A stretch of 64,000 nucleotides of DNA, taken from NCBI GenBank assembly GCA_028554795.2, contig CM068839.1, positions 89,252,182-89,316,181 on the forward strand, in the 5' to 3' direction. Each line of letters begins with the position of its first letter. The first letter of the stretch is position 1. Positions 1-62,620 of this stretch are shown piece after piece. The position numbers and the translations under genes were made by a program. The notes under the pieces were generated by a model. The model was not told the DNA's origin. It saw only the letters and a list, made by a program, of their open reading frames with translations, and searched no databases. This DNA comes from Sinohyriopsis cumingii. Its lineage: Eukaryota > Mollusca > Bivalvia > Unionida > Unionidae.

Positions 1-846
1 GTGGCGCGGGGATACATGGACTCCTGAACGAATGGGAGAAAAATATATACCTAAAATAATTATTTGGGATGAGATATGTACGGTGTCATTGGATACATTA
101 AAAACGTTTCTTGATTGGTTGTTGACGAAAAATACCGCTGTGGTGGTCTGTGGCGATCATGGTCAACCGTCGCCTTTTGTTGGACCATCTCCACATGATT
201 GGTTAAAAAATTTCGTTGATTATTACGAAGAAATAGATGATGATCATAGAGCTCTCGATGCAAATTTGAAGGAGTTCAAAAAATTAATCAGATTACAATC
301 AAACAAAATTCAGTGTGAAATAATACGCGGAGTAATCTCAGAGACCTCAGTGGGTGATTTTTTTAATTTATGGAGACCCACCGATTTGATAGTAGCAAGC
401 AGAAAAATAATCAGAGACGATTTACAACAGCAGTTATTTCAACTACATAAAGAAAAATATTCAGAATTACCCGTACCGTTGTGTTATAGACCATCAGATA
501 CACGAAAACAAAATATTAATGTTCATATTCCAGGACAGACTGAAAAATAGAATCTCGTATTAAATGATATTGTCGCCGTTGATATCAGTGTGGTCGAAGA
601 TGCATTACGCGCTGACAAATCTTCATGGGTGTTGGGATACGCTATGACGATCCACTCGTCTCAGGGATTAACTATTTCTGACACACGAGTCTGGATTGTG
701 GATGATCGTATCGAGTGGTCAAATTTAGTCTATTTAGCGGTATCGAGGGTCAGAAAGATATCTCAATTACGTAGAATTATAATTCCTGAAATCGTTGATA
801 AATTTAACATCATCGATGATGATATAATAAGAAAAAAATTAATCGG
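1..846 (+). pseudogene. SF1 helicase, C-terminal two thirds (element copy A)
   Basis: Superfamily 1 (Pif1/RecD-like) DNA helicase fragment cut by the left window edge. Visible motifs: motif II IIWDEICT near 58-80, motif III VVCGDHGQPSPF at about 150-180, motif V GYAMTIHSSQGLT at about 630-670, and motif VI NLVYLAVSRVRK at about 722-757. Walker A would lie left of base 1. A stop plus frame change near 548-560 separates the frames 32-550 and 590-967, so this copy is dead. The same protein recurs in copy B at 11320-12330, where it directly follows a DNA polymerase B. Presumed role: unwinding during replication of the virus-like element. Confidence 0.85.
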
Positions 847-1102
847 ATATAAACAATCTGATAAAAAAAATAAACGCGACTTTGATCTCGATGTTGAATT
901 TATTATTGAGTTAAAACAGCAGCAGAATAATCATTGCACAAGTTGCAATTGTATAATGCTATGGTAGTATTCGAATAAAAATTCAAGACAATTTACCGTA
1001 GATAGAAAAGATAATAGTCGCGGTCATACACGAGAAAATACCATGTTGACCTGTCTTGAGTGTAATCGACGTCGGGGTGCAGGCACCCTTGGCGCTAGTT
1101 AA
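847..1102 (+). pseudogene. HNH-type zinc-binding nuclease domain (copy A)
   Basis: In-frame continuation of the helicase, so it was probably a C-terminal domain of the same protein. Pattern: NNHCTSCN, then FTVDRKDN, then a GHTREN stretch, then LTCLECNRRRG. This is the C-x2-C / DR-x-DN / N-x(n)-C-x2-CN layout of HNH (His-Me finger) nucleases. A TAG at 965-967 interrupts it where copy B has a Gln codon. The frame otherwise closes at TAA 1100-1102, only tens of bases from the converging integrase. Activity is not shown; it could nick or process element DNA. Confidence 0.7.
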
Positions 1103-2063
1103 GTGATCGCGGTGGTAGTTGTGTATCCGTGGGGATTATTTGTAATTGTTCACGTGTAAATCCACGTTGAGGAGCAGCCGAATCTAATCTGTAGATTGCA
1201 GGTCTACCTGAGGATCTTGTCACGGTGGATATTTTGTGTGTGGTAACACTCCAAATAGGATCAGTCGCTCTTTTTTTTACCACCTTCAAGTTCACCAGGC
1301 TCATATAAATATCGTCAGTGACATCACCCAATATTTTCTGTTTTTCAACATCTTTTCGTTGTGTTGGTATATTTTTTTTGTGACCGCGCTACTGGGTTTC
1401 ATGTTGGTTGTTCGTGTAATCTCATTACTTAATGCAGCTATCACGCTTGGTAATCTTGCAACCCATTCGCGAGATCTTTTATCCTGAATAAATTCCCTCG
1501 CGTATTGATATCCAAATAACCGCTCAGCGAGTGTTCGATTAAATCGCTCAACAATTGCCTGATCACGATGAATTGCAGTATGCCCTCGTCTTATTTTGGT
1601 ATTATGTTGTTTCATCAACAATGATACTGGACCAAGAAATTCCTTACCAGGATCAACCTGTAGTAGCTGTGGCCATCGCAGACCACCTCGTGGTTCACCA
1701 CCTCGTTGATAAATTCGCTCAAACGCATCGGCTACTTCAGATGATGTTTTCGTCGATAACGGTTCTGCTTCTTTATATCTACTTGCAACATCAACTACGG
1801 TTAACGCGTATTTGTATGTTTTTCCACGCACAGTATCATGCGGTAAAAACAGAATATCAGCTTGATGAACTTCATTAGGAACACTGACATCGAAATACGC
1901 GTACTGAATTTGTTTCGGTGGTGGTAGATAAATTTGCCATAATTGCTTGTTTAGATAACCACGTTTTAGCAGTAGAATGTTTAACCGCTGCTGCATCAGC
2001 AAGTTTACCAACTGCTGCTTTGCCTCTCCAGTATCCTCTTGGTGAATAATAAATCAATTCCAT
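1095..2063 (-). pseudogene. rve-type integrase (copy A)
   Basis: DDE integrase read right to left. The N-terminal part is a small helical, HTH-like segment (YYSPRGYWRG, TAKTWLSKQ) at 2063-1940. The catalytic core follows at about 1900-1480: first Asp in HQADILF, second in LQVDPGKEF, and Glu in IVERFNRTLAERLF about 34-35 residues later, the retroviral/Polinton spacing. The C-terminal SH3/chromo-like barrel is at about 1300-1100 (DPIWSV, GRPAIYRLD, FTREQL). Frame breaks near 1990 and 1310 divide it into three frames, so it is inactive. Its start codon abuts the stop of the PLA2 gene at 2064, suggesting co-transcription. Expected role: inserting the element into host DNA. Confidence 0.85.
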
Positions 2064-2567
2064 TTATATATTACCAGCCCCAAGCGCTAATTTACTTTTC
2101 ATCGCGGATCTTACTAACCAAGTAGCTAATTTTTCTTTGATATTTGTATTTTTTATAGAATCTAGCGCGTGAATTAATTTCACATCCGCAATATGTCTAT
2201 CTTGTAGATTTTTACTTTTATACGCAACATCATGAGCGTGACAAGCTCGATCAATAGCGTTTATTGGTTCCTCGCCTGGTTTTGGTTGATCTTGATTATC
2301 GAGCCTGATATCAAGTCTGGTACCAGGACCGCAATAATTATATCCTGGTAGATGTTTTTCTCCGCTGTATTTAGCCCATGGAGCACCTGGAAACTTTGAC
2401 ATCAAATTAGCAATATCACCACCGCGCTTATTAGGTAAAAACGAAAATTTCTTCCTACCGCATACAGAACATTTTCCACCATACGCTATTTTTTTATTTT
2501 TTGTTGTAACCGTAGCTAAATCAACAGTTGGAGTTTTAAATCTACAACGTAAACAATATAAATTCAT
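2064..2567 (-). CDS. zinc-ribbon phospholipase A2-like protein (copy A, intact frame)
   Basis: 167 codons, uninterrupted. Residues 5-8 and 33-36 form two CxxC pairs (zinc ribbon). Residues 78-83 (YCGPGT) fit the calcium-binding loop and 106-116 (DRACHAHDVAY) the catalytic His-Asp helix of the PLA2 fold found in parvovirus VP1 unique regions and in some adinto-like viruses. There the domain helps virions cross endosomal membranes; for this element that is inference. No signal peptide is seen, which argues against a secreted host PLA2. It sits directly upstream of the integrase on minus and back to back with the ATPase, with a 12-bp AT-rich gap that must hold both starts. Copy B has the same gene, broken. 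Confidence 0.8.
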   Translation of the reverse strand: MNLYCLRCRFKTPTVDLATVTTKNKKIAYGGKCSVCGRKKFSFLPNKRGGDIANLMSKFPGAPWAKYSGEKHLPGYNYCGPGTRLDIRLDNQDQPKPGEEPINAIDRACHAHDVAYKSKNLQDRHIADVKLIHALDSIKNTNIKEKLATWLVRSAMKSKLALGAGNI

Positions 2568-2579
2568 GATATAATATAT

Positions 2580-3242
2580 ATGGATATAATTGATTTCTCA
2601 GCGACAAGAAAACGAGAGCCAGTTAAACATCATCCTGCGCTACCGAACTCCATCAGAATGATTATCATAGGACCATCTGGATCGGGTAAGACGCAGTTAT
2701 TACTTAATCTGATAATGAGATGGTTGAAATGGGATAAATTGTATTTAGTAGCACCATCCGCTGATGATCAACGATGTTATGATGTACCTAAAGATTTCAG
2801 TGAAAACGCGCGATTACTGGATGAAGGTAATGATGTTATAGAGTTTATAACCGATATTGATGAAGCACCGTCCGTAGATATTTTAGACGGATTTATCAAT
2901 AATTTAGTTGTATACGACGATGTGATGCTAGATAAACAATCAAATCAAGCCAGAATATTTTCCCGAGGTAGACATAAAAATACAGATGTGATCTATGTTA
3001 CTCAACGATATACACAAATACCAAAAGTGATCAGAGACAACTGCAACATTTTAGTTGTGTTTAATGGTGTAGACACACACACGTTGCGAAATATTCATCA
3101 AACTTGGTGTGGTGGTGACATGGATATAATTAAATTCAAAAATTTCTTCTCACGAGCGCAAGCTACTCCGCATGGATTTATAACAATAAATTTACATGAT
3201 CCAAGAACAAGATATCGTGTGGGTCTTGATAAAATTTTTTAA
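2580..3242 (+). CDS. A32/FtsK-HerA-like packaging ATPase (copy A, intact frame)
   Basis: 220 codons, open throughout. Walker A GPSGSGKT at residues 31-38; Walker B NLVVYDDVM near residues 110-117; then the conserved QRYTQIPKVIRDNCN stretch typical of the poxvirus A32, adenovirus IVa2 and Polinton/adintovirus genome-packaging ATPase family. Such enzymes pump viral DNA into capsids. Its preservation while its neighbours carry stops may be chance or mean younger decay. The ATG lies in an AT-rich spacer shared with the divergent PLA2 gene. No capsid gene is recognised nearby. Confidence 0.85.
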   Translation: MDIIDFSATRKREPVKHHPALPNSIRMIIIGPSGSGKTQLLLNLIMRWLKWDKLYLVAPSADDQRCYDVPKDFSENARLLDEGNDVIEFITDIDEAPSVDILDGFINNLVVYDDVMLDKQSNQARIFSRGRHKNTDVIYVTQRYTQIPKVIRDNCNILVVFNGVDTHTLRNIHQTWCGGDMDIIKFKNFFSRAQATPHGFITINLHDPRTRYRVGLDKIF

Positions 3243-3250
3243 TTAATATA

Positions 3251-3507
3251 GCAGCAGAGAGGGCGCCTACCAACGTTGGTCGTCCAGTAATTAAACAAAA
3301 AAAAAAATAAATAAATACGCAGAGTACTTTATTTTCCAGCTATCTTTTCGAACTAAGGTTTTATTGATGGGGTTGGTTTCAACAAAAAATAAAATCATCT
3401 CAAGGAAACGTTTATTTGTGAAAATCTGGACCTTTCTATGAGATTTTATTTTTTGTTTGTTTTATTTGTTTGTCGGAATCATATGGTCTGTTCGCCCTCT
3501 CTGCTGC
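3251..3507. repeat. 15-bp perfect inverted repeat around ~230 nt (end of copy A)
   Basis: GCAGCAGAGAGGGCG at 3251-3265 is matched by its exact reverse complement at 3493-3507. The left arm starts 8 bp after the ATPase stop. Inside are a small palindrome (CCAACGTTGG) and AT-rich sequence. Copy B has the same arrangement at 15056-15288, and both right arms are preceded by GTCTGTTCGCCC. Similarity between the copies ends about here, so this may be the element terminus. Confidence 0.6.
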
Positions 3508-4251: not shown

Positions 4252-4435
4252 CCTTGTCCAAAATCTGAAATTTCAAATAAGGATTTAATTCTTGGATGGT
4301 ATTATTATGATCCAACAAAAGATTGTTGTCTTATTAATGAATATTCTGTTCTATCGCAAATATATTCAAGTATACAACAAAAAGTAAATGAAAAGAGATA
4401 CAGGACCGGCACTATAGCGACAATGAGAATTTAAC
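4252..4435 (+). other. Coding-like open stretch running into the inverted repeat
   Basis: After a TGA at 4249-4251 the frame stays open for about 60 codons (reading KDLILGWYYYDPTKDCC and LSQIYSSIQQKVNEK) to a stop near 4433. It has no ATG start and no domain I recognise. Amino-acid composition is protein-like up to 4394; beyond that it enters the inverted-repeat arm. It may be the end of a gene interrupted by the insertion, or chance in AT-rich DNA. Confidence 0.3.
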
Positions 4436-4637
4436 ATGGGGAAATTTAACATGGATGGGTCTGTATAGGGACAAGGGGAATTAACATTACAGACTCCCTA
4501 TAGCAATTATAGCGACAAAATTTATAGCGACAAGGGAATATAACATGGGAAATGGATATAACACAGACAATAGACAACAGACATTTTTTTTAAAGAAATT
4601 AGGCAAGAAAGTCAATTTCTTTTCGAGGCATATGAAT

Positions 4638-4653
4638 GGTCCTGAAAAGGACC
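4638..4653 (-). terminator. Histone-type mRNA 3' stem-loop (left arm)
   Basis: On minus: CCCAAA, then GGTCCT-TTTC-AGGACC, then ATTCAT. That is a 6-bp all-Watson-Crick stem with a 4-nt TTTC loop. A conserved CGAAAAGA block starts about 12 nt downstream, where a U7-binding histone downstream element would lie. It sits 33 nt past the stop of the minus-strand 198-codon gene. It matches the metazoan histone consensus rather than a poly(A) signal. Confidence 0.8.
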
Positions 4654-4685
4654 TTTGGGTTCTTCTTCTTCTGCTTCTTCTTCTA

Positions 4686-5282
4686 CTACTTTCTCCATTT
4701 CTTCATCCATCCCCAGACCTTTCCCAAAATTCCTTTCTTCTTCCTCTTTTCATTTTCTGGTAACCAGTCAGGATGACCCATAGACCTGAACTTCTCCTGT
4801 ATCTCGATCCAATTCTGACTGAGTTTGTCAAAGGCCTCTTTCTTCTTTATTTTTTCCTTATCCTGTCTTTCTGGACTCCATTTTTCTTTAATGTTATTCA
4901 CCCCTTGGGTCATCACTTGTCTCATTATTTCTTCTCCTTTTTTCAACCTGTCCAGACCCCTCTTCACATAAGACAACTCCGTCCAATACACTATATGTTC
5001 TAGGAAGCACCGAACTTGAATGACATGATCCACTGCTTCCTTCAAACTTCCCACTCTGACGAAAGGCTGGACAATTAATCCTCTCAACGTATTAACTTCT
5101 TCTTCTATCATCCCTTCTATTAGATTCCTGGCTACCTTTAGACCTTTGACTTGACTGGTTACCAAGTCTTTGGTATCTCCATACCTCCATTCCTTTTCTA
5201 TCCTTTCTATAACATATTCTACATCCATCATCCAGAAATAGATATCTCTCAATTGATTGAATAAAGCAGACACTTGCGCCAT
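4686..5282 (-). CDS. 198-aa helical protein with basic amphipathic tail (left copy)
   Basis: Intact frame of 198 codons, nearly identical to 7320-7916. Not recognised. It is charged and predicted mostly alpha-helical, with long heptad-like stretches (ERIEKEW, DRLKKGEEIMRQVM, KEKIKKKEAFDKL). The C-terminus is strongly basic and amphipathic, ending GKVWGWMKKWRK, which could contact membranes or nucleic acid; that is inference. No signal peptide. A TATA-like CTTATA (5333-5338 on plus) lies about 50 bp upstream and a histone-type stem-loop 33 nt after the stop. Both copies staying open suggests recent duplication, gene conversion or selection. A structural or core virion protein is one possibility. 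Confidence 0.7.
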   Translation of the reverse strand: MAQVSALFNQLRDIYFWMMDVEYVIERIEKEWRYGDTKDLVTSQVKGLKVARNLIEGMIEEEVNTLRGLIVQPFVRVGSLKEAVDHVIQVRCFLEHIVYWTELSYVKRGLDRLKKGEEIMRQVMTQGVNNIKEKWSPERQDKEKIKKKEAFDKLSQNWIEIQEKFRSMGHPDWLPENEKRKKKGILGKVWGWMKKWRK

Positions 5283-5345
5283 CTTGTCTCGGTTATTCCG
5301 TAGAATGGCGCGAACGACGAACGCTGTGAATTCTTATATGTAAAG
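5283..5345 (-). promoter_or_regulatory. TATA promoter of left 198-aa gene
   Basis: Minus strand reads CATATAAGAA at about 5333-5341, about 55 bp before the ATG, followed by a CG-rich leader (CGTTCGTCGTTCGCGCC). The mirror copy is at 7258-7319. Confidence 0.5.
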
Positions 5346-5439
5346 CACGAACGTGAAGGAAAATACCCCCTACTTTTCTCTTCTCATATTATCTACTATT
5401 CGCACAGTAATGACTAGACAAATAACACAACCACAACCA

Positions 5440-6800
5440 TAATATGCTATCCACACACTCGAAGAAGCCAAAACATGACCACCAATATAGTATCCACACA
5501 CGGGAATCAGCAAAACAAACTCTTACTTTACTATCCACAAACCCAAATATACTATCCACACACGCGCAGCATCAAAACAAACTCTTACTTTACTATCTAC
5601 AAACCCAATTCTATACTATCCACACACGGAAAGCAGCAAAAAACAAACCCAAATATACTAACCACACACTGGAAGCAGCAAAACAAACTCTTACTTTACT
5701 ATCCACACACCCGAAACAGCAAAATCAAGCCCAAACCTACTATCCACACACGGGGAGCAGCAAAAACATAACCATAATATACTATCCACACACGGGAAGC
5801 AGCAAAAACATAATCACAATAAACTATTCACACACGCGATGAAGCAAAACAAACTCTTACTTTACTATCCACACACGGGAAGCAGCAAAAAATCAAACCC
5901 AAATCTACTATGAACACACGGGAAGCAGCAAAAATCAAAACCAAATATACTATCCACACACGGGGAGCAGCAAAAACATAACCATAATATACTATCCACA
6001 CACGGGAAGCAGCAAAAACATAATCACAATATACTATTCACACACGCGAAGAAGCAATACAAACTCTTACTTTACTATCCACAAACCCCATTATATGCTA
6101 TCTAAGGAGCCAAAACTAAACACTCATCTACCATCCACACACGGGAGAAGCTAAAAACATAACCACAATCTACTATCCACACAGGCGAAGAAGCCAAATC
6201 AAACCCAAATTATACTATCCACACACTGGAGAAACATAACCATATTCTATTATCCACACATGCGAAGAAGCCAAAACATAACCACCAATATATTATTCAC
6301 ACACGCGAAGAAGCAAAACAAACGCTTACTTTACTATCCACAAACCCCATTATATACTATCCACACACAGGAAGGAGCCAAAACTAAACACTCATCTACT
6401 ATCCACACACGCGGAAAGCCAAATCAAACTCCAAATCTACTATTTACACACGCGAAGAAGCCAAATCAAACCCAATAATCTACTATCCACACACGCGAAG
6501 AAGCAGAAGATAACCACAATCTACTATCCAGACACGCGGAGAAGCAAAAACTAACCCTTATTATACTATCCACACACGGAGAAGCCAAATCATAACCATA
6601 ATTTACTATCCACACGCACGAAGAAGCCAAATCAAACCCAAAATCTACCATCCACACAGAAGGGAAGGTTAAATAACCACACACTCTACTATCCACACAA
6701 ACGTACGTGAGCGCTTACAAAATCGGGAAAAAGCCAAATTAAACCCAAATTCTACTATCCACACACGCGGAGAAGCAAACAATTAAACACACATTTACTA
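5440..6800. repeat. Minisatellite, unit ~27-40 bp (CTATCCACACACGCGAAGAAGC)
   Basis: About 40 imperfect units built on ACTATCCACACACGCGAA, GAAGCAAAA and variable spacers (TCTTACTTT, CATAACCA, AAACCCAAA). Some larger blocks repeat as a whole, for example around 5740-5830 and 5950-6040. Frames read through it on both strands but encode only the repeat. It lies between the two inverted arms. Confidence 0.9.
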
Positions 6801-7257
6801 TCCGTTTAATATTTGATGTGGCAAGAAGAAATGGTACAATACGCAACAAATGGATTGTAAGTTTACACTCCAATCTGTCTGCACTGCAGTGGTAACAACG
6901 CTCTTGCGTTGGCAATATTTTGCCACACTACCTAAGAAAAAAACAATGCATCACTCATCATAAACGATTTCATTGGCTAGACTTATTTTCTGACCGTTTT
7001 CACTTCGAATTAACTTCAGTACCTTTTCGCACAGGGACAAGATCGGACGTGTTTTTATTATGATGCGGCAGGCCGCTACACTACTTTCCCTGAATTTACA
7101 CCAAACAATGTGTTACACACTGTAAGTGACTTCATTGGCAAACCGATATTTTACACTTCTGTCTCTATTGATGTGAGTGTGCTTGTCGAAATGTTTGAGG
7201 AAGATTACAAATGTTTGTCAGTTTCAAAACGCGAACCAGTACTGTGGCCGTTTAATA
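6801..7257 (+). other. Inner spacer with unrecognised coding-like frame
   Basis: Between minisatellite and right arm. GTTTAATATTT occurs at both ends (about 6803 and 7249). From 7014, after TAA 7011-7013, the plus frame is open to TAA 7266-7268 (84 codons), reading for example RTCFYYDAAGRYTTFPEF and FEEDYKCLSVSKREPVLW. There is no start codon or recognised domain. It could be the 3' end of a truncated element gene. Confidence 0.3.
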
Positions 7258-7319
7258 TTTACATATAAGAACTCACAGCGTTCGTCGTTCGCGCCATTCT
7301 ACGGAATAACCGAGACAAG
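7258..7319 (+). promoter_or_regulatory. TATA promoter of right 198-aa gene
   Basis: TATAAG at 7264-7269, 56 bp before the ATG at 7320, with the same CG-rich leader as the left copy. The spacing resembles that of the gene pair at 61.7-61.9 kb. Confidence 0.5.
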
Positions 7320-7916
7320 ATGGTGCAAGTGTCTGCTTTATTCAATCAATTGAGAGATATCTATTTCTGGATGATGGATGTAGAATATGTTATAGAAAGG
7401 ATAGAAAAGGAATGGAGGTATGGAGATACCAAAGACTTGGTAACCAGTCAAGTCAAAGGTCTAAAGGTAGCCAGGAATCTAATAGAAGGGATGATAGAAG
7501 AAGAAGTTAATACGTTGAGAGGATTATTTGTCCAGCCTTTCGTCAAAGTGGGAAGTTTGAAGGAAGCAGTGGATCATGTCATTCAAGTTCGGTGCTTCCT
7601 AGAACATATAGTGTATTGGACGGAGTTGTCTTATGTGAAGAGGGGTCTGGACAGGTTGAAAAAAGGAGAAGAAATAATGAGACAAGTGATGACCCAAGAG
7701 GTGAATAACATTAAAGAAAAATGGAGTCAAGAAAGACAGGATAAGGAAAAAATAAAGAAGAAAGAGGCCTTTGACAAACTCAGTCAGAATTGGATCAAGA
7801 TACAGGAGAAGTTCAGGTCTATGGGTCATCCTGACTGGTTACCAGAAAATGAAAAGAGGAAGAAGAAAGGAATTTTTGGAAAGGTCTGGGGATGGATGAA
7901 GAAATGGAGAAAGTAG
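7320..7916 (+). CDS. 198-aa helical protein with basic amphipathic tail (right copy)
   Basis: Same protein as 4686-5282 in opposite orientation, differing at a handful of residues (for example Val for Ala at 2, Lys for Arg in PFVKVG, Glu for Gly in the QEVNN segment, Phe for Leu in KGIFGKVW). No family recognised; helical and charged, ending in a Trp/Lys-rich basic segment. TAG stop at 7914-7916, then a GAAGAA run, then a histone-type stem-loop 26 nt after the stop. The short 3' UTR is what replication-dependent histone mRNAs have. Confidence 0.7.
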   Translation: MVQVSALFNQLRDIYFWMMDVEYVIERIEKEWRYGDTKDLVTSQVKGLKVARNLIEGMIEEEVNTLRGLFVQPFVKVGSLKEAVDHVIQVRCFLEHIVYWTELSYVKRGLDRLKKGEEIMRQVMTQEVNNIKEKWSQERQDKEKIKKKEAFDKLSQNWIKIQEKFRSMGHPDWLPENEKRKKKGIFGKVWGWMKKWRK

Positions 7917-7942
7917 AAGAAGAAGAAGAAGAAGAACCCAAA

Positions 7943-7958
7943 GGTCCTTTTCAGGGCC
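7943..7958 (+). terminator. Histone-type mRNA 3' stem-loop (right arm)
   Basis: CCCAAA, then GGTCCT-TTTC-AGGGCC, then ATTCATATGCCT, then CGAAAAGA. The third base pair is T:G here but T:A in the left arm, so pairing is kept in both. Confidence 0.8.
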
Positions 7959-8029
7959 ATTCATATGCCTCGAAAAGAAATTGACTTTCTTGCCTAATTT
8001 CTTTAAAAAAAAATGTCTGTTGTCTATTG

Positions 8030-8335
8030 TCTGTGTTATATCCATTTCCCATGTTATATTCCCTTGTCGCTATAAATTTTGTCGCTATAATTGCTATAGG
8101 GAGTCTGTAATGTTAATTCCCCTTGTCCCTATACAGACCCATCCATGTTAAATTTCCCCATGTTAAATTCCCATTATCGCTATAGTGCCGGTCCTGTATC
8201 TCCCATGTTAAATTCCCCTTGTCGCCATAGTGCATATCCTGTGCTCCCATGTTAAATTTCCATTGTTGCCATAGTGGATATACCCTATTTTAACATTACA
8301 GGCCCTTTGTCGCTATAGTGGCCCACTATACTACT
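8030..8335. repeat. Terminal tandem motif zone (CCCATGTTAAATTCCCCTTG)
   Basis: Imperfect units of CCCATGTTAAATTCCCC + TTGTCGCTATAGTG, about 35-45 bp each, at least five. The 8030-8202 part belongs to the right arm; the rest is unique to this side. Clearly related units occur at 62400-62610, tying the two elements together. Confidence 0.75.
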
Positions 8336-11330: not shown

Positions 11331-12330
11331 TATTTGAACGGGGCGGGTAGATCTGGTAAGACAACTCGAGCGATTGAATTATTTCGACAGAATTCAGATA
11401 TGATTGTGCTAACACCAACACACAAACTTGACAGGGAGATGAAACAACGAGGAGTCAATTCTAGTACAAATACAGCGGTGGTGTGTGGACTTCAGATCGA
11501 ATGGTAGATAAATATATTCCAAAGGTTATAATTTGGGATGAAATATGTACGGTACCGTTCGAAAAAAACATTTCTCGATTGGTTATTAATAAAAAATACA
11601 GCTGTGATAATGTGCGGCGATCACGGTCAGCCACCTCCGTTTGTTGGACCATCCCCACATGATTGGTTGAAGAATTTTGTTGATTATTACGAAGTAGTGA
11701 CTGATGATCATAGATCTCTCGATGCAGAATTAAAGGAATTTAACACATTAATCAGACTACAACCGAATAAAATTCAGTGTGAAATTATGCGTGAAATAAT
11801 TTCAGAAACTTCCTTGAACGACTTTTGGAAAACGTGGAGACCAAACGATCTGATAGTGGCAAGTAGAAAGATAGAGACACACTTCAACAGCAGTCATTTC
11901 AATTACACAAGAAAAAATTTCCAACACTGCCAGTGCCATTGTGTTATAGACCAGCTGATACGCGGTTACAGAATATTGACGTTGATATACCAGGACAGTC
12001 AAGGAGGAAGCAGAATCTTGTGCTGAATGATATTGGCGCAGTTGATGTCAATGTTGTTGAAGATGCACTGCGCGCCGATAAATCCCCGTGGACGCTAGGA
12101 TACGCAATGACGATACATTCATCTCAAGGACTGACTATCACTGATACATTTGTTTGGATCATTGATGATCGAATCGAGTGGTCAAACTTAGTTTACTCGG
12201 CTGTGTCCAGAGTCAGAAGAATATCTCAACTGCGAAGGATTGTCTTGGATGAGTCAATGGCTTATGAAATTAATAATGAAAACAACAGCGATATAATCAG
12301 AAAAAAATTAGCTGGTTACAAACAGAGTGA
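11331..12330 (+). pseudogene. SF1 helicase (copy B)
   Basis: Walker A GAGRSGKTTRAIELF at about 11341-11385, in the same frame as the polymerase. Motif II IIWDEICTV at about 11530-11556. Motif III CGDHGQPPPF near 11612-11641. Motif V GYAMTIHSSQGLT near 12098-12136. Motif VI SNLVYSAVSRVRR near 12182-12220. Frame breaks near 11500-11560 and 11870, plus a final slip in an A-run at about 12332-12340, kill this copy. Highly similar to 1-846. Confidence 0.85.
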
Positions 12331-12557
12331 CAAAAAAAAATAATCGCGATTTTGACCTTGATGTTGAATTTATCATGACACTGAAACAACAGCAGAATAA
12401 TCACTGTGCGAGCTGTAATAGTATAATGTTGTGGCAGTATTCGAGTAATAATCCAAGACAATTCACCGTAGACAGAAAGGATAATCGTCTTGGTCATACA
12501 CGCGAGAATGTGATGCTGACCTGTTTCGAGTGCAAACGGCGTAGGGGTATTAGTTAA
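12331..12557 (+). pseudogene. HNH-type domain (copy B)
   Basis: Motifs NNHCASCN, FTVDRKDN, GHTREN, LTCFECKRRRG; TAA at 12555-12557. Same as copy A but displaced in frame from the helicase by the A-run. It was probably the C-terminal domain of the polymerase-helicase protein. Confidence 0.7.
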
Positions 12558-12949
12558 GTGGTCTAGGCGGTAATTGTGTATCCTCGGGAATTACTTGTAA
12601 TTGTTCACGTATGAATCCACGTTGAGGAGCAGTCGAATCCAACATGTAGATTGCTGGTCTACCAGTAGATCTAGTTATGTTAGATATCTTGTGTCGTGAT
12701 GCTCCAGATAGGATCAGTCGCTCTTTTTTTTACCTTTTTCAAGTTCACCTGGTTCATATAAATATCTCACAGTGACATCACCCAGTATTAATTGTGCTGA
12801 AAAATCACGTCGATGTGGTATATGTTTTTTTGGTAATTGTGTTAATAGGTTTAATGCTGGTTGTTCGAGTAATTTCATTATTTAATGCAGTTATCACGCT
12901 TGGTAATCTTGCAACCCATTCGCGTGATCTCTTGTCCTGAATGAATTCC

Positions 12950-13008
12950 ACTTGCTGAGCGGTTATTTGGATATCAATACGCGATATCCAAATAACCGCT
13001 CAGCAAGT
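12950..13008. repeat. Perfect 26-bp inverted repeat, 7-nt loop
   Basis: Arms 12950-12975 and 12983-13008 (core TGAGCGGTTATTTGGATATC) around AATACGC. Copy A (about 1495-1535) has only the right-hand version, so the left arm arose in copy B as an inverted templated duplication. Confidence 0.85.
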
Positions 13009-13227
13009 GTTCGATTAAATCGCTCAACAATTGCCTGATCACGGTGAATTTCAGTATGTCCTCGTCTGATGTTGACATTATGTTGCTTCATCAGCGATGA
13101 TACTGCACCCTGAAATTCTTTGCCAGGATCAACTTGTAAGAGATGTGGCCATTGTAGAGGTCCTCGTTGATAAATTCGTTCAAAAGCATTGGCTACTTCA
13201 GTTGATGTCTTTGTTGACAACGGTTCT

Positions 13228-13478
13228 TGTTGTTGTTGTTGTAGGGTTTAACGCCATTTTTCAGCACGCAATAGGCTATACATGGCGGCCAGTATTAATG
13301 GTGGAGGAAGAAACCGGGAAATCCCCGGAAAGAACCACCGACCCTCGAGAAGCTACTGGCAAGCTTTCTCACATATCCACATTTGCCGAATCCGAGACTC
13401 GAACCCACGCAGACAGAGGTGAGATGGCAGTGATCCGTAACGGTGAGCGCTTTAGACCACTCGGCCACTGGTGGCCCC
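13228..13478 (-). mobile_element. tRNA-derived SINE, 251 bp
   Basis: Read on minus from 13478: tRNA Ser/Leu-like head with A box TGGCCGAGTGGTCT and B box GGTTCGAGTCT, then a body (AAGCTTGCCAGTAGCTTCTC, CCACCATTAATACTGG), then an (AAC)n tail. Flanked by a 12-bp target duplication GACAACGGTTCT (13216-13227, 13479-13490). Related copies: 17656-17814 and a decayed one near 50170-50345. Confidence 0.9.
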
Positions 13479-13800
13479 GACAACGGTTCTGCATCTTTGT
13501 ATCTACTTGCAACATCAACTACAGTTAACGCGTATTTATATGTTATTTGACGTCTTCGGATTTTAATAGTATCATGTGGCAGAAATAATATGTCAGCCTG
13601 ATGAACTTCATTGGGAACACTAACATTGAAATGCGCAAGGTGAATTTGTTTAGCCGTGGTTGGTAAATTTGCCATATTGCCTGTTTGGATAACCATTTTT
13701 TAGCAGTATCGCGTGTAACTTTTGCTGCTTCAGCGAGTTTACTAATTGCTGCGCTACCCCTCCAGTATCCTCTTGGGGAATAATAAATCGACTCCATTAT

Positions 13801-14368
13801 AATTAATTACCAGCACCTAACGCTAATTTACCTTTCATTGCGGATTTTATTAACCAACTAGCTAATTATTCCTTGAGAGATTTATCAGTGATGGAATTTA
13901 ACGCGTGAATTAATTTCACATCTGCGAGATGTCTATGCTGCAGATCTTTACTTTTATAAGCTACATCATGAGCATGACACGCCTTATCAATAGCGTTTAT
14001 CGGATACTCACCTGGTTTTGGTTGATCTTGGTCATCAAGTCTGATATCAAGTCGGGTTCCAGGGCCACAGCAATTATATCCTGGAAGGTGTTTTTCTCCT
14101 GGGTATTTAGCCCACGGAGTCCCAGGTAGTTTTGTTAATTTTGATGCGATGTCCCCCCCGTGTTGCTTTTTTTTTTACTTGATTTTGGCTTTGATTTTGG
14201 CTTTGGTTTTGGTTTTTCACCTGACTTGCCAGTAGAGATAAATTTAAATTTCTTTGTACCGCATCGTTCACACTTGCCCGTAACCGCAGATCTATTATTT
14301 TTTGTTGTAATGGTTGTTAAATCACTTATTGGTGTGCGCGCCCTGCATTTCACACAATATAGATCCAT
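13801..14368 (-). pseudogene. Zinc-ribbon phospholipase A2-like protein (copy B)
   Basis: Same domain order as 2064-2567: zinc ribbon (YCVKCR, CERCG) at 14360-14250, then a Lys/Pro/Ser-rich linker longer than in copy A (KPKPKSKPKSSKK). A frame change near 14150 is followed by the PLA2 core (CCGPGT near 14055-14075; KACHAHDVAY near 13955-13985). A stop near 13870 removes the tail. The linker looks like a local repeat expansion. Dead copy. Confidence 0.8.
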
Positions 14369-14388
14369 ATTTATTTTATATTATTCTA

Positions 14389-15055
14389 ATGGAGATCACT
14401 GACTTTTTTGCTACAAAACGACGAGAACCAGTTAAGCATATTGCTGCGTTACCAAATTCTATTCGAATGATTATAATTGGTCCATCTGGAAGTGGCAAGA
14501 CGCAGTTGTTACTTAATTTAATAATGTAGTGGATGAAGTGGGATAAGTTGTATTTGGTAGCTCCATCTGTAGACGATCAGCGTTGTTATGATGTAATAAA
14601 AGATTTTAATGAAAGCGCAAAATTGTTAAATGAAAACGGAGATGATGTTGTTGAATTTATAACTGACATTAATGAAGCACCAAGTATCGATGATATTGAC
14701 GGGTCAATTAACAATGTAGTTGTGTACGATGATGTAATGCTGGATAAACAATCAAATCCCGCCAGGATATTTTCCAGAGGCAGACACAAAAACACAGATG
14801 TAATTTATGTAACCCAGCGGTATACACAAATTCCTAAAGTGATCAGGGATAACTGTAATATTCTTAGTCTTTAACGGAGTTGATACTCACACATTACGAA
14901 ATATTCATCAGACCTGGTGCAGCGGTGACATGGACATAAATAAGTTTAGAAATTTCTTTAGTCGTGCTAAAACAAACCCATACGGATTTATAACAATAAA
15001 TTTACACGATCCTCGAACACGGTATCGAATCGGGTTAGATAAAATTTTTAACTGA
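14389..15055 (+). pseudogene. A32/FtsK-HerA-like packaging ATPase (copy B)
   Basis: Begins 21 bp from the divergent PLA2 start. Walker A GPSGSGKT near 14479-14502; Walker B VVVYDDVML near 14717-14745; QRYTQIPKVIRDNCN near 14815-14860. A TAG at 14527-14529 replaces a sense codon of copy A, and a one-base slip near 14868 shifts the C-terminal part, which continues to TGA 15053-15055. Otherwise closely similar to copy A over its length. Confidence 0.85.
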
Positions 15056-15288
15056 GCGGCAGGGAGGGCGACGCTCTCAACGCGTCACCGACAATCGCGC
15101 ATGTTTCCTTAAGTTGCATCAAAGGAAAAAAAAACTATCAGCGATTCAGCGTAAGCCAATTTGTCATCTTACGCTGAATATCGCATTTTTTAAAACGATT
15201 TTTGTGATCCCCAGGAAGTCGTATTTTGGCGAAATATAGGTGAACCAATTAGAGTCTGTTCGCCCCCCCCCCCCCCCCCCCCGCTGCT
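15056..15288. repeat. Terminal inverted-repeat-like block of copy B
   Basis: GCGGCAGGGAGGGCG at 15056-15070 and CGCCC...GCTGC at 15261-15287, where the right arm is inflated by a run of about 20 C. Same position relative to the ATPase stop and same preceding GTCTGTTCGCCC as copy A, but the loop sequence differs and holds its own hairpin (TCAGCGTAAG / CTTACGCTGA). Confidence 0.5.
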
Positions 15289-55794: not shown

Positions 55795-56265
55795 TTAACA
55801 TTTTATAAAAAATAAGCTATTATGTGGAAAAGAAACAACAATGAAATAGGATGCAATGTGTTTACGTCTAGTTTTGGAAGGTACCGTCTCTAAGGTACCA
55901 TCATAATTGTACCGTAGTTTAATGGGTGGAAAGGCCATTGAAAGGTAAGGGCAGTGCGGAGACCATCGAGTATGTTCCAGAATAGCTGAATCTTTGTAGA
56001 TACATAGATCCATTCGTAACTTAAGTCCGCAAGCGAAACACTGTACTTCGTATCCCAATCCTGACTCGGGTCCGAAGTAGACAAATCCTGTTCTAGCTAA
56101 AACATACGAAGAAGGTAATCCTTCCCTATCCGTAGGCCATTTTTGAAACATGTCCAATCGACGGGCACAATCACAATAGTCAGGTAAGAAGACTGGAAAA
56201 TGGTAGGGTTTGAACTTGGAGTTCTCACTGGATTTCTCACTCGATTCTTGCTGCGGCGAAGTCAT
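55795..56265 (-). CDS. BIR-domain (IAP-like) protein in viral element
   Basis: 156 codons, open. One baculoviral IAP repeat at residues about 33-110: CARRLDMFQKWP, LARTGFVYFG, then zinc ligands in QCFACG (CxxC), EHTRW (His) and PHCPYL (Cys). No RING domain follows. BIR proteins bind caspases or IAP antagonists and block apoptosis (established for baculoviral and host IAPs). The Trp usually found after CxxC (NW) is Met-Asp here, so peptide binding may be altered. It starts 15 bp after the PolB frame ends on the same strand, suggesting viral co-expression and capture from a host IAP. The last 25 residues are hydrophobic and may be read-through of decayed sequence. Confidence 0.8.
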   Translation of the reverse strand: MTSPQQESSEKSSENSKFKPYHFPVFLPDYCDCARRLDMFQKWPTDREGLPSSYVLARTGFVYFGPESGLGYEVQCFACGLKLRMDLCIYKDSAILEHTRWSPHCPYLSMAFPPIKLRYNYDGTLETVPSKTRRKHIASYFIVVSFPHNSLFFIKC

Positions 56266-56280: not shown

Positions 56281-59200
56281 CTATCCTCTTACAACCAATG
56301 TTTTATATCGACATGTCCATACGGCAAAGTAAAGTGGGTGGGAAGCCGCACTCGCTTCTGCTACACGATTTGATAGACTTTTTCCAAGGGTCGACTGACG
56401 ATGTGGTGTGTGGGTAAACGTACAATCTTGTTGGGTTGATAGGTGGTCACTATCTCTAGACTGCAAGGCTTCTTTCAATATGCCAAAGTTGACCACTCGA
56501 CTGGTACGATAATTCAGAGTAAGTCCTTTCACTTTACACTTCGTGTGCACTTCTCCTTGTTTGGCCCAGTATTCGTAGCCGTAATTTTTGGGACCACCAC
56601 TAACGAAACTTAGAATCTTGTCATTGGGGTGCTTGTCTGTCCAGGCTCCTAAACGGTCTCCTTCGATGTCAGGGTGCTGTTGACTCGGGTGATCGATATA
56701 AATGCAACTGTCCATGTCAAAGTACAAGACACGTTCCCCTAACAGTTCTAAAGCTTCGTACAATTTTAAGCGAGCATGAGCTGTCATGTAAGCTGCAATG
56801 ATGACATTTCCAAAGGGGTCATCTTCTACAAAGTTCAGATCTTCTTCGTAATTCACCAAGATCAAATCCTCACGAACGACGTCCACGTGTTTCATGAATT
56901 TGGCTTTGTCGTGAATCATCTGAAAGTAGCGGGAAGGTTCGGTGAAATACTCCGTCTTGGGTAAACACGGTCATTGTGCCATTTTACCCCACAAGCAATT
57001 TAACATCACTTTGGCAAACGATCGCCTGCCTTCGTTTTTCTCAATGTGATCTGAAGTAATGCCTTCTTGTGCCCAGAATTTCTCTCTGAATGTCTTTTGG
57101 TCTTCGGGAGTGTGACACCAGGACAGATAGCCACTGGCTTCTTGCTCAGTTTCAAAAAGGCATCCACGTAGTCTGCGAAAATGCCTTTCTGCGTGGGGTC
57201 ACCCTTGTGGAATTATTGTGTCTTGGGAAAGTGGCAAATTTCGTACACTTCTAACAGTTGGTATCCCATGTTCAGAGCTTTGAACAATTCTACGCTGACC
57301 CATGTCCCCGTCAAGGCCCGTTCTTCCTGGGTGTGATGACAAGGTTGATCTTGGTTGCACGTTTCAGCACAAGTACGGCACAAAGGAAACATAAGTTTGC
57401 CTTGGCAATGGCGAGGTAAGATGGGATGGTATAGGTTCGTGGGAGGCAAAACTTTGCACTTGATCAAGCCTTCGTATTGTCGAATGTTTTTTAGGTCGAT
57501 GTGTTCGGTGAACAATTGTGGGTGCCCTGCAGGAAAGCAACAATATTTGCACACGTAGGGATACAGTGAACACACGTCCAAGTATATGATTTCTTCTCCT
57601 TTCTCTTCGTCAGCTTGGTACAGCAAACAGGTGGCATTGGTCCTTCCTCCGTACAAACTATTACTTGGGTTCAGGGGGTCAATGAACTGGTAACTTTCCA
57701 TGAGGCGTTTAAACTCGGGATCGGTGTTCAAACGGTGATTGTATTTGTGTTCCCACATTTCCACCACTTGGTATCCTTCCTGTTCTAACTTTAGGCGTGG
57801 CTGACAAATGGCCTGGTACAAGTCTTCCATGGTTCGTTGTAAGAACTGATTTTTAGTGCCGCGGTCAGGGTAACAGACGGGACATCCGTGAAATAAGCAA
57901 CCGTTAAACTCGTACATGATCTTGGGGTTTTCTAAGTCCCAGCCATTGACCGAATGCATTCCGATGATCTTTCGCCCTGTCCGTTGCGGGCATGCTGAAT
58001 CCATTTGTCTTCCTTGTCGCACAAGTAATGCAACCAGCATGGGGCTTTGACCGAGTATTGACGTTTGACATAGTTGGTCGTTTGAGGACTGATGACAGCC
58101 ACAGTGTTTTCAAGCATGAATCGTTGTCGGTAGACTAAGGAACACGCTTTGGCAATGGTGCAAGCCTCTTTTAAATGATCAACCCCTCCATGTTCCATGA
58201 ACAGTTCTCGAAATTTTCCACAGCATCGCCGTAAAATGTCCATGTCGGAACGACGATACTTTAGCATTTCTTCCTGAAAGTCGAAAGGGTCGGAGGCGTG
58301 AGCCTGGTACCAAGCGTAGAAAGTTTCTCGTTCGGTACGCATGTTGTCAGGGTCGTAATAGTGAGCCTGAGGCAAATGGGGTAGAACGGCGTGTTGATTG
58401 GCTTCTGTATTGAAAAAGTGTGGAAAGTATCCTTTAGCCATTTCTGTCATTCCAAACATTTTAGGCATTCGACTCAAAGGCATGGCTAAGTAGCTCATCG
58501 AATCTTTAAACTGCACTTGTCCCACTTGCATGAAAATGATTTTGGCTCCGTTCAAAGTGATTTTAGGACGCTCGATGCCACGTTCCGTATAACATCTCAA
58601 AAGAAACTGTCCATCATATCCGGAGAAATTGTGAGCCATCACCGTGGCATGACAATGACAATCTCCATAATAATGTTCGATGTCCTCTTGGCTCCACGTC
58701 TTGTCGATGGGGTCTAAGACCCATTGTGTGAAATCGGCTAGTGTGTTCGGTCCTTGAAAGATTTTTTCACGCCCTCCAGGAATCTTACTGCAGTGAGGGC
58801 AATAACTCAAGATAGGTTCTTGAATCACTTCTCGCACGCTCGATGAGCCACACAGAAATTAGGAATGTGAATACTGATCTCTTGCATGCATTCAAAATCG
58901 AAAAAGATGAAATTGCCTTTCTTCTTCTTGTGACCATCCTCTTTCTCTGGTTGGGATTGGTATTTTTGTATGTAGCATTGGTGTTCCAAGTCCACAATGC
59001 AGTGACAAATGTGACATTTTTTCTTTCCTGAACATACGTGTGCCTTGGTACTGTTGATACATAGACCTTGTCCACACATTGGGCACAATCTCAGGAGTTG
59101 ACAAGCACATTTCTTCTGTGAACCTTGCATCTTCAGATGTTGTTGGTAACAGGCAGGGCTGACAAATGTGCGCAGACAAGCAGGACAATGCACTGGTTCT

Positions 59201-60300
59201 TGCCCTTCGCTCAGACAGGGTTGAGAGGCCAAACATCCTGAGCATTTCGATCCACAATGTTTGTGTTGCTCTCGATTATTATAACCATCATAAGTCACAT
59301 TTCTCACAGTAATATTTGTATCCCAGGAATCCAGTGATAGTGGTAATGGTATCGAAATGGTCATCGTGATGATAGAGGTGAATGTATTTTCCATCCTTAA
59401 AGTCTTTCCCTCGAAACAACAGAGACCCGCGCACTTCTTGAGGGTGCACTTTCAAGGTGTATCGTGGAGCTAGGGCATCTTGCAATTTTTGCATCTCAGG
59501 AATGCCACAGGATGTGTCTTTGGACAGGCATGCTTGTTGTAACAGAAGTTCTGCTTCATTTCGTTGTTTGGCTCGGTTCGATTTTCGAATGTTCTCCCAG
59601 GCTCTTTTCCATTCTACCGTGTCGTTCTTGTCGGCATAGGTTCATCCCACCACGATGGCTCGGGCTAAACACATGTGGTCTTGAAAATTGTTAATTTGGA
59701 CAAGACTTGTTTTGGTAATGCGAAGGTTGTTGACCAATAAGGTCTTTCTGCATTGTCCGGTCCCTTGAGGAGGAGAGACGTGGGTCATGTCCAGTGTGGC
59801 TTTTCCATCGGTGATGTCAAACTGGTCATTAGATTGTTGCACGTGTTGAATCTTGTCCATGACTTTGGAAGTGGTCAATTCTGCAGGGCTGCTAAACTCG
59901 ATCCAAACAGGGGATTTCAAGCCGTCATGTTGTATGGAAAGTCTCAAGCGATCATCTTCTTTGGGTTGACATTGTCGCTTGAGTGTGGTGAGCAAAGAAT
60001 CCCACATCTCGGTGATGAACCCTTTTGCTTTCTCTAACAGTACTTCAGACTTGAAATCTTTAAACTTCACTGTGTATTTGTAAGCCGTAGTTCTAAATTT
60101 TCTAGAGGGACGCTTTTCCGTCTCTCGAATGTCATAGTACTTTTCAGGGTTGACTAAGGGTGGTAAACTTTGTTTAGAGGGTTTGGATTCTGGTTCACTC
60201 ATGTCCTCTTCAAAATCACTGGCATGAATTTGTGCCAAGACTTCAGCCCTAGTACGAGGCGATAGATCACGTTTCTGCCTCTTACTTTCTTCTTCTTTCT
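56281..60300 (-). pseudogene. Protein-primed DNA polymerase B, adinto/Polinton-like, fragmented
   Basis: Read right to left. N-terminal region 60300-59640: unrecognised, with a KRQKR basic patch and no clear ATG. Then Cys/His-rich fingers 59290-58990 (CSGCLASQPC, CPACL, CPMCGQGLC). Exo I FFDFECMQE near 58920-58890. Exo II AHNFSGYDGQF near 58640-58605. Exo III YRRSDMDIL near 58260-58225. Motif A LDVCSLYPYV near 57585-57550. Motif B LNCLWGKM near 57005-56980. Motif C YFDMDSCIYI near 56730-56695. At least five frame breaks or stops. Gene length and order match full polymerases of adintovirus/Maverick elements. It is distinct from the copy B polymerase, with canonical D-x-D in motif C. Confidence 0.85.
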
Positions 60301-60458: not shown

Positions 60459-60909
60459 ATGGAAGAGACTACCAAGATTGAACGTTTCATCAGAGCTTTG
60501 CGAGGGGTCATTAGAAAATTCTCTTCAGACCAGCCGAGGGACTACTCTCCTTCCTTTCAAGATAAAAGTCAAGATACTTGCTATATCTGTCAGAAGAAAG
60601 GGCATTGGTCTTCAGAGTGTCCAGACCGTCAAAAAAGAAAAAAAAGGGGTTAGAAGAGACAAAAGTCAAGATACCTGTTATTATTGTCAAGAAAAAGGAC
60701 ATTGGTCACCAGACTGCCCAAAAAAGAAACAAGAGGAGTCAGAAGAAGAGAGGGATTCTTCAGAGGAAGAGGAAGAGGAAGAAAACAGACAGGTGAAGAA
60801 AAAGAAACAGGAGAAGAAAAGAAGGGAAGAAAGTGAGGAGGAAGAGGAGGAAAAGACTATGACGGTGAAGAAATTAAAAAAACAGAGAGTGAACAATGAG
60901 ACAGAATAA
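60459..60909 (+). pseudogene. CCHC zinc-knuckle protein with charged tail (frameshifted)
   Basis: The ATG frame gives a basic N-terminus (KIERFIRALRGVIRKF), then knuckle 1 CYICQKKGHWSSEC (C-x2-C-x4-H-x4-C). It reaches TAG at 60651 after an A-rich run. Knuckle 2, CYYCQEKGHWSPDC, and an acidic/basic tail (EEERDSSEEEEEEEN, KKKKQEKKRREE) follow in the next frame and end at TAA 60907-60909. Either a slip mutation or programmed frameshifting on the A-rich tract. Knuckles bind single-stranded nucleic acid, so a core or nucleocapsid role is possible. The two knuckle segments repeat each other, so they arose by internal duplication. It is followed by AATAAA at about 60969, not by a histone stem-loop. 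Confidence 0.65.
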
Positions 60910-61125: not shown

Positions 61126-61141
61126 GGCCCTGAAAAGGGCC
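61126..61141 (-). terminator. Histone-type mRNA 3' stem-loop (minus gene of divergent pair)
   Basis: On minus: CCAAAAAA, GGCCCT-TTTC-AGGGCC, ATCCACGTCT, then CTCGAAAAGAGA. Perfect 6-bp stem, TTTC loop, purine block about 13 nt downstream. Confidence 0.85.
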
Positions 61142-61296
61142 TTTTTTGGTGTAAGGGGTGAGTTTAAACAATCAACTTTAACTGTCTTAAGCCTTTGCCA
61201 TGGCCAAGGCCTACTTCTGGACTGCGTACTGTTGATGATGATTTCGTTGAAATCACTAAGGATGGTGCAGTAGGCGTAGTCACAGGGTTGGAGTGT

Positions 61297-61728
61297 TTAG
61301 CTTGGGAAGGTCGTATTCTCTTCGGCCGTAATAAAGAAGTCTGATACATCTGTTTCAGACTTCTTAACTAAAATGTCTAACAGTACCGTGACCGTTTGAT
61401 TTTGACACCCTTGTTTCTTTGCTGCTGCGTCTTCTTCTTCTTGTTTTTTTCTTACCTCTTCTTCTTGCTGCTGTTGCTGTAGGAGAAAAGCTTGTTCCGC
61501 TTCCTTTTGCTGTTGTATAAATTTCTCCAATTCTTCTTTCTGTCTCTGTCTAAAATTTTCCATGTGCGGTAATGAAGGAGAAGGTGACGAAGGTTCAGGA
61601 ACAAATTCTTGCAAGGTAAAAAAATCCACAAAATCCCAATTCACCTCTTCTGAAAGTAAGTCTGGGTTCCCTTGGGTAGTCTCCACCATCAGTGCACCCA
61701 AACTGATCGTTTTCTGAGTTTCCGTCAT
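61297..61728 (-). CDS. Unknown Gln/Glu-rich coiled-coil protein
   Basis: ATG chosen at 61728 (MTETQKTISLGALMVE) because TATATA lies 49 bp upstream; a longer reading would need a GTG. Central residues are coiled-coil (RQRQKEELEKFIQQQKE, then a Q/E/K tract), preceded by a Pro/Ser segment. Stop at 61297. The frame 61349-61164 continues Arg/Pro-rich sequence after a possible one-base slip and would end 23 nt before the stem-loop. So the original protein was perhaps 190 residues, or the 3' UTR is about 155 nt. No family recognised; a virion core or scaffold role is speculative. Confidence 0.55.
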   Translation of the reverse strand: MTETQKTISLGALMVETTQGNPDLLSEEVNWDFVDFFTLQEFVPEPSSPSPSLPHMENFRQRQKEELEKFIQQQKEAEQAFLLQQQQQEEEVRKKQEEEDAAAKKQGCQNQTVTVLLDILVKKSETDVSDFFITAEENTTFPS

Positions 61729-61948: not shown

Positions 61949-61950
61949 AT

Positions 61951-62199
61951 GTGGACCGATGTACAATCTTCAACGCTTGTGTCTTCGATGATGTTCCGGA
62001 CGGACATATCAATGTATGTCCGATCCAACTGGACAGTTATCCACAGGACAGACACCAGCCTGTGGATGCGAAGAATCTTATGTGGAGCATCAAGGATGCC
62101 TCAAAAGAGTCTTAATCTATGGTCCTGCAGTCAGGCACAGCCTAAGGTCAAGAAGAAGATGTCACAGATGCCCTTTATGTTAAGGGTATATTAACATAA
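61951..62199 (+). pseudogene. Unknown small protein, plus gene of divergent pair (decayed)
   Basis: The ATG at 61949 opens one frame (81 codons), but the neighbouring frame from GTG 61951 looks more protein-like: CTIFNACVFDDVPDGHINV and QPVDAKNLMWSIKDASKE, then stops at 62113 and 62143 and a final TAA at 62197-62199. A one- or two-base change near the start plus two nonsense changes would explain this. Function unknown. The final stop lies 7 nt before a histone-type stem-loop. Confidence 0.45.
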
Positions 62200-62206
62200 A
62201 ACCAAA

Positions 62207-62222
62207 GGCCCTTTTCAGGGCC
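62207..62222 (+). terminator. Histone-type mRNA 3' stem-loop (plus gene of divergent pair)
   Basis: ACCAAA, GGCCCT-TTTC-AGGGCC, ATTCCTATCT, then CTCGAAAAGATC. Best match of the four to the metazoan histone consensus, including the CCAAA flank; purine block at 62235-62242. Confidence 0.9.
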
Positions 62223-62334: not shown

Positions 62335-62620
62335 GTTCCATTTTCATAGACCCATCAGGTCGGGACCTTATTAAAATAGGGTCCCGACCCTGTTCCATTT
62401 CCCCTAGTCCCAAGACAGTCCCACGATTTATTCCCCATGTTCAATTTCCCTTGTCCCTAGAGTGAATAGTTTTTTTTCTTTCTCCCATGTTAAATTCCCC
62501 TTGTCCCTAGAATGGATATTTTTTTTTCTTTCTCCCATGTTAAATTACATAGTCCCCAGAGTGGATATACCCTTTTTAACATGGAAGTTCCCTAGTCCCT
62601 AGACCGTCCCTATTCACTAC
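62335..62620. repeat. Terminal tandem motif zone of right-hand element
   Basis: Units of CCCATGTTAAATTCCCCTTG + TCCCTAGAGTGGATA, three to four copies between 62450 and 62580, flanked by looser ones. Related to 8030-8335. Contains a 10-bp hairpin (GGTCGGGACC at 62358-62367, GGTCCCGACC at 62380-62389). Confidence 0.75.

Follow-up and report, generated by a model that had tools for sequence, protein, structure and literature searches.

A candidate histone-type mRNA 3'-end signal behind non-histone genes of a Polinton-like element family in the bivalve Sinohyriopsis cumingii

Introduction

The 3' ends of histone mRNAs in animals are formed by a dedicated pathway, in which SLBP sits on a stem-loop, the 5' end of the U7 small nuclear RNA (snRNA) pairs with an element further downstream, and cleavage by CPSF73 takes place between stem-loop and element (PMC7026596; here and below, statements on cited work refer to excerpts of the sources). 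For the mouse histone downstream element (HDE) a purine core AAAGAG is described, which pairs with CUCUUU of U7 (PMC7026596), and in Hydractinia a stem-loop together with a purine element is given as the hallmarks of replication-dependent histones (PMC5011920). We analysed a stretch of 64,000 nucleotides (nt) of the bivalve Sinohyriopsis cumingii (assembly GCA_028554795.2, contig CM068839.1, positions 89,252,182 to 89,316,181, forward strand), in the following called the window. Within these 64 kb there are four copies of a module of about 60 nt resembling the histone signal, located behind short genes of two mobile elements: the palindromic element A, and element B, which harbours the pieces of a broken DNA polymerase B (PolB) gene. 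From the sequence evidence given below we consider it very likely that some of the short genes of a Polinton-like, PolB-bearing family are followed by a portable 3'-end signal of the histone type, through which the family would use the SLBP/U7 pathway of the host.

Histone-like features have been described for several other genetic parasites. Xeno-class adomaviruses encode a "Histoid" (PMC11071296) and a bracovirus encodes a histone H4 variant (PMC12819152); according to these excerpts both are histone-like proteins, whereas in elements A and B only the mRNA end signal is histone-like. A weak Histone3 prediction of 14.7 bits lies inside a coronavirus coding region (PMC7786107), and loop 27 of the potato spindle tuber viroid is a histone-like loop without an extended stem (PMC6827988). 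As far as the excerpts go, neither of them stands at the end of a gene together with a downstream element. The excerpt of a study on poxvirus infection deals with host histone mRNAs and, by citation, lists TCF15 as an SLBP-bound host mRNA of a non-histone gene. In the open-licence literature no histone-type mRNA end was found described for either mobile elements or DNA viruses, judged by titles, the beginnings of abstracts and term counts and, for long lists, by a part of the entries. The signal and this class of elements are each known already; the combination of them is new as far as this search reached.

The modules resemble the 3' ends of replication-dependent histone genes (RF00032; SLBP/U7 small nuclear ribonucleoprotein (snRNP)/CPSF73) in the letters of stem and loop, in the AAA flank on the 5' side and in a purine block after a short spacer. 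The genes in front of them are also similar to histone genes, with short open reading frames (ORFs), a TATA-like box, a short 3' untranslated region and, at three of the four stops, no nearby AATAAA or ATTAAA, but they encode non-histone proteins and sit in mobile elements. Furthermore, the block CUCGAAAAGA and the following CUUUC(AA)UUGCC are unlike the mammalian HDE. With Polinton/Maverick elements and adintoviruses the family shares a PolB of the DNA_pol_B_2 type (relatives in molluscs, arthropods, a rotifer, a coral and vertebrates among the matches listed) and terminal repeats. As to inverted repeats, element A has inverted arms, and element B shows one end within the window. The difference is that integrase, ATPase and capsid genes are missing among the element B ORFs tested, and that histone-type ends were not found reported for those elements in the literature covered.

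Structure and position of the modules

The four stem-loops and their HDE-like blocks are located as follows.

4638..4653, minus strand: stem-loop A_left, RF00032 33.5 bits, strict motif
4618..4627, minus strand: HDE-like CTCGAAAAGA of A_left, 10 nt past the stem
7943..7958, plus strand: stem-loop A_right, RF00032 28.0 bits, strict motif
7969..7978, plus strand: HDE-like CTCGAAAAGA of A_right, 10 nt past the stem
61126..61141, minus strand: stem-loop B_in, internal to element B, RF00032 35.2 bits, above gathering score
61106..61115, minus strand: HDE-like CTCGAAAAGA of B_in, continuing as AAAAGAGA, AAAGAG included
62207..62222, plus strand: stem-loop B_end, near the end of element B, RF00032 33.5 bits
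62233..62242, plus strand: HDE-like CTCGAAAAGA of B_end, 10 nt past the stem

Each module starts with the AAA flank, followed by a 6-bp stem with a UUUC loop, a 10-nt spacer, the invariant CUCGAAAAGA and finally CUUUC(AA)UUGCC. Besides the stem-loop, the alignment of the four copies shows AAA on the 5' side, AT on the 3' side and, later, CTTTC-(AA)-TTGCC as common to all. The purine-rich CTCGAAAAGA begins exactly 10 nt past the stem in every copy and is invariant; the purine core is AAAGAG in B_in and AAAGA in A_left, A_right and B_end. All modules are in sense to the gene before them, and the distance from stop to stem is 12 nt at B_end, 22 nt at B_in, 26 nt at A_right and 32 nt at A_left.

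An earlier sequence-only reading of element A had described both copies of its 198-codon ORF as ending in a 6-bp stem with a TTTC loop, a CCCAAA flank and a downstream CGAAAAGA block, 26-33 nt behind the stop. These letters are confirmed, and the measured distances are 26 nt in the right and 32 nt in the left arm. The same reading noted a T:A pair in one arm and a T:G pair in the other at the third position of the stem, and took this as a sign that pairing survives substitution; the four sites of which it speaks must include B_in and B_end. The letters are indeed as given, with T:A on the left and T:G on the right; as evidence of selection, however, the argument had to be rejected. One of six stem pairs varies across the four sites (CG twice, UA and UG once each), and 261 of 500 shuffles equal the covariation of the four sites. 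Because the change is a one-sided G-U change, the arms are nearly identical and so many shuffles do as well, the arm pairing carries no weight.

Statistical support

A search with cmscan for the histone 3' stem-loop (Histone3, RF00032), whose gathering score is 34 bits, matched all four sites: B_in with 35.2 bits (61146-61101, minus strand), B_end with 33.5 bits (62202-62247, plus strand), A_left with 33.5 bits (4658-4613, minus strand) and A_right with 28.0 bits (7938-7983, plus strand). This covariance check, which the sequence-only reading had proposed, thus gives a mixed outcome. B_in is above the gathering score, but neither site of element A reaches it, so that element A taken alone would have no hit above threshold.

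The strict motif GGYYYT[TC]HTHARRRCC (in RNA GGYYYU[UC]HUHARRRCC) matches four times in the window, only at the four module sites, while 0.025 matches per window are expected from 40 first-order Markov sequences. The hairpin of 6 bp and 4 nt is both the minimum free energy and the centroid fold at all four sites. Out of 200 shuffles, two fold as well as A_left, 13 as well as A_right, none as well as B_in and one as well as B_end; A_right is therefore unexceptional in this respect. Only 1.6% of strand positions fall 12-32 nt past the stop of an ORF of at least 60 amino acids (aa), a figure that is a rough guide since these limits were set by the observed distances themselves, and all four sites do so. 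Of these placements only three are independent, because the arms of element A are copies of each other. With the model R1, which was built from the four modules, these score 83-90 bits and the next best stretch of the window 14.5 bits.

Retention between elements and genes

Leaving the comparison of the two arms aside, five comparisons between modules give identity at 46-53 of 57-60 aligned bases (81-88%). In the 100 nt on either side the best free-end alignments comprise at most 11 bases (given as raw lengths). By blastn the identity of the module is 84-86% between element A and B_end, 77-79% between element A and B_in and 86% between B_in and B_end. The terminal tandem repeats of the two elements are 73% alike by blastn as well. 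The shared terminal repeats and the shared module therefore indicate that A and B are diverged kin that retained the module. Within element B the module follows two different genes in opposite orientations, so that in total, over the two elements, three different non-histone genes have it at their 3' end. This retention between elements and between genes is the best evidence for a putative function of the module, and better than the arm pairing.

The genes of element A

Element A (4395-8202) is palindromic, with arms that are 98-99% alike, a minisatellite centre and one outward-reading 198-codon ORF per arm.

4395..5344: left arm, inverted repeat 98-99%
7258..8202: right arm, inverted repeat 98-99%
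5426..6803: minisatellite centre, 42-bp unit family
8117..8296: terminal tandem repeats, 73% to 62399-62582
4686..5282, minus strand: 198-aa ORF of the left arm, two relatives
7320..7916, plus strand: 198-aa ORF of the right arm, inverted copy

The 198-aa protein has two relatives on short contigs, with 54% and 53% identity. Over the 597 nt compared, the ORFs of the two arms differ at seven coding positions, all of them non-synonymous and none synonymous; therefore the arms look unconstrained since copying. AlphaFold2 gave a mean predicted local distance difference test (pLDDT) value of 42 with four sequences of this family. A membrane-active C-terminal helix was considered and rejected, as its hydrophobic moment is unremarkable (equalled by 211, 63 and 55 of 1000 shuffles), and a weak match to SseC, whose 16.8 bits fall short of the cut-off of 30.2, was set aside. 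By hhalign there is no relation between the 198-aa family and the family of about 200 aa from element B (probability 0.7%).

The genes of element B

Element B includes the broken PolB pieces, a BIR ORF, a zinc-knuckle ORF and two module sites, and has one end within the window.

56281..60238, minus strand: broken PolB gene in pieces, DNA_pol_B_2 in two of five pieces (Pfam), the other three by order and strand only
55795..56265, minus strand: BIR-domain ORF (Pfam; BIR = inhibitor-of-apoptosis), directly behind the PolB pieces
60459..60653, plus strand: zinc-knuckle ORF, start of a gene-like stretch ending at about 60907 by eye
61297..61728, minus strand: 143-aa ORF, N-terminal part of a frame-broken gene of about 200 aa, 16 relatives at E of 1 or below with an alignment
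61164..61349, minus strand: piece in another frame matching the C-termini of the relatives, stop 22 nt before the B_in stem
61949..62194, plus strand: 81-aa ORF, stop 12 nt before the B_end stem
62399..62582: terminal tandem repeats, 73% to those of element A

For the gene of about 200 aa in front of B_in, 12 of the 16 matches are near-full-length relatives, and therefore it represents a real gene family. The gene in front of B_end is probably broken too; by eye, a second frame of the 81-aa ORF stretch is more protein-like. None of 17 ORFs or ORF pieces from the window and three relatives was assigned to a histone family in Pfam.

The PolB piece has 340 relatives at E <= 1e-5. Among the 120 matches listed the named ones are a minority; they come from a clam, oysters, a coral, a rotifer, insects, spiders, a toad and a fish, and two are labelled bacterial. 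This suggests that the PolB of element B is of the Polinton/Maverick/adintovirus sort. No integrase (rve), A32-type ATPase or jelly-roll capsid was found by Pfam among ten element B ORFs or pieces, with one end of the element in view and loss being possible. Because these genes are missing among the ORFs tested, we call element B Polinton-like and not a Polinton. The assumption of the sequence-only reading that a virus-like mobile element is involved is backed by way of element B, namely by the PolB pieces, the BIR ORF and terminal repeats resembling those of element A.

The two stem-loop genes of element B are separated by a divergent promoter-like region (61728-61949) with TATA-like boxes in both directions. 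By eye it also contains two CCAAT-type boxes and a TGACGTCA palindrome, an arrangement recalling divergent histone gene pairs.

Promoters and polyadenylation signals

At all four sites a TATA-like hexamer precedes the start codon of the gene in front by 53-57 nt. Within 250 nt past the stop, neither AATAAA nor ATTAAA is present at any of the sites except B_end. The zinc-knuckle gene of element B provides the contrast case, with AATAAA at +61 and without a stem-loop; the two types of 3' end thus seem to occur together in element B.

Searches for relatives

In IMG/VR no near relative was found with the 198-aa protein (alone or as an alignment), with the PolB piece alone or with the alignment of the family of about 200 aa. 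The PolB alignment led to 173 distant loci, of which 80 were kept, and no convincing module was present in these 80 (best R1 score 17.3 bits, E 0.49). Scans of genome contigs gave no relative and no match to the module pattern.

Proposed mechanism and alternative explanations

In the mechanism we favour, host RNA polymerase II would transcribe the stem-loop genes from the TATA-like boxes that precede their start codons by 53-57 nt. SLBP would bind the stem-loop of the element, the U7 snRNP would pair with the CUCGAAAAGA block, and CPSF73 would cut between the two, so that the mRNA would have no poly(A) tail. The production and persistence of these mRNAs would fall mainly into S phase, the time at which the replication precursors of the host are available to a DNA element. 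The histone-type 3' end, already proposed by the sequence-only reading, keeps its support from the covariance model (one of four sites above gathering), the position behind the stop, the exact spacing to the purine block, the few poly(A) signals nearby (none at three of four stops) and the retention in two diverged elements at three genes, and loses the argument from arm pairing.

Several observations speak against this mechanism. The RF00032 gathering score is missed at three of the four sites, at two of them narrowly (33.5) and at A_right clearly (28.0). The mouse substrate has ACCCA after the stem (PMC7026596, from the excerpt), whereas AUUCA, AUCCA or AUUCC is found here. The 5' end of vertebrate U7, which says little about a distant host, pairs no better with the modules than with their shuffled versions, of which 60 to 264 of 500 do equally well. 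B_end has an AATAAA 99 nt and an ATTAAA 175 nt past its stop. A TATA-like box is also present at the zinc-knuckle gene (60-62 nt), and is therefore not a marker of stem-loop genes. Of the three stem-loop genes one, that of about 200 aa, is frame-broken in the window and a second probably broken. Finally, because no relative with DNA context was found in IMG/VR or the genome contigs scanned, the signal has been seen in one genome only.

Some of these points would suit a stem-loop that works without U7, as a binding site of SLBP or as a protection of RNA ends, the ends being made by termination or another nuclease, or by polyadenylation further downstream as well. Both the vertebrate U7 pairing, which is not above shuffles, and the AATAAA and ATTAAA downstream of B_end are in line with this, and bdelloid histone genes can have both signals according to the excerpt of PMC2642717. 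However, the spacer and purine block are invariant and the other three stops lack AATAAA and ATTAAA within 250 nt, and we regard this alternative as unlikely. Somewhat less probable still is a DNA-level terminal element, i.e. an origin, packaging or recombination hairpin that only resembles the histone stem-loop. The module sequence is a short inverted repeat, and three of its four sites are near element ends, but B_in is internal, opposite to B_end and directly behind another gene. In addition, all four sites are in sense 12-32 nt past a stop, and the conserved asymmetric AAA flank and the purine block at fixed spacing suit a histone signal better.

The module may well once have been captured from a histone gene, and the sites could be functionless remnants of a piece of a host histone gene that was copied into the elements. 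With no Pfam histone family in the 17 ORFs or pieces of the window, and with the module kept while the flanks are unrelated between the sites, which is unexpected for a dead fragment, this is very improbable. Weak resemblance as such arises easily, as shown by the 14.7-bit RF00032 match in coronavirus coding sequence (excerpt of PMC7786107). Looser stem-loop patterns matched two and two stretches in IMG/VR; only one of these four (L002) matched RF00032, with 24.8 bits and thus below gathering, and three did not at the thresholds used. The strictest pattern, on the other hand, had no match in IMG/VR, and in the window there are four strict matches against 0.025 expected, all behind stops and with a shared downstream block. 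Chance resemblance has next to no probability and is in our view already refuted by the strict-motif count and the shared block.

A histone-type signal processed by SLBP and U7 therefore remains the reading we prefer. Going one step further, it seems somewhat probable that an animal mobile DNA virus lineage has built the histone 3'-end pathway into its gene expression, with a portable signal behind several genes, ordinary poly(A) signals behind others and a set of mRNAs produced and retained only during DNA replication of the cell. If true, a pathway regarded as reserved for histones would have a second natural user in this family, and this rule would be broken. The family would also be a natural reporter of the effect of the signal alone on a non-histone gene, and would represent a route for a DNA parasite to couple its genes to S phase. 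For the U7 snRNA of the host, a 5' end containing UCUUUUCGAG is predicted.

Other elements of the window

By eye, the retroelement and transposase ORFs of the window, together with the animal relatives of the PolB piece, point to an animal genome. Another virus-like element is present in two copies (1-3265 and about 11486-15070), which are 74-80% alike in three blocks and have element A between them. Its ORFs include a helicase-like one (by eye), an rve integrase, a PLA2-like protein with DUF5679 and an A32-type ATPase, with rve and A32 at 1301-3242. No convincing module was found by R1 in either copy. In the ORF 2064-2567 (minus strand), which adjoins the A32-type packaging ATPase, DUF5679 is joined to a Phospholip_A2_4 domain. 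At 30431-31048 (minus strand) the window harbours a Tigger/jerky-like transposase ORF, named by eye.

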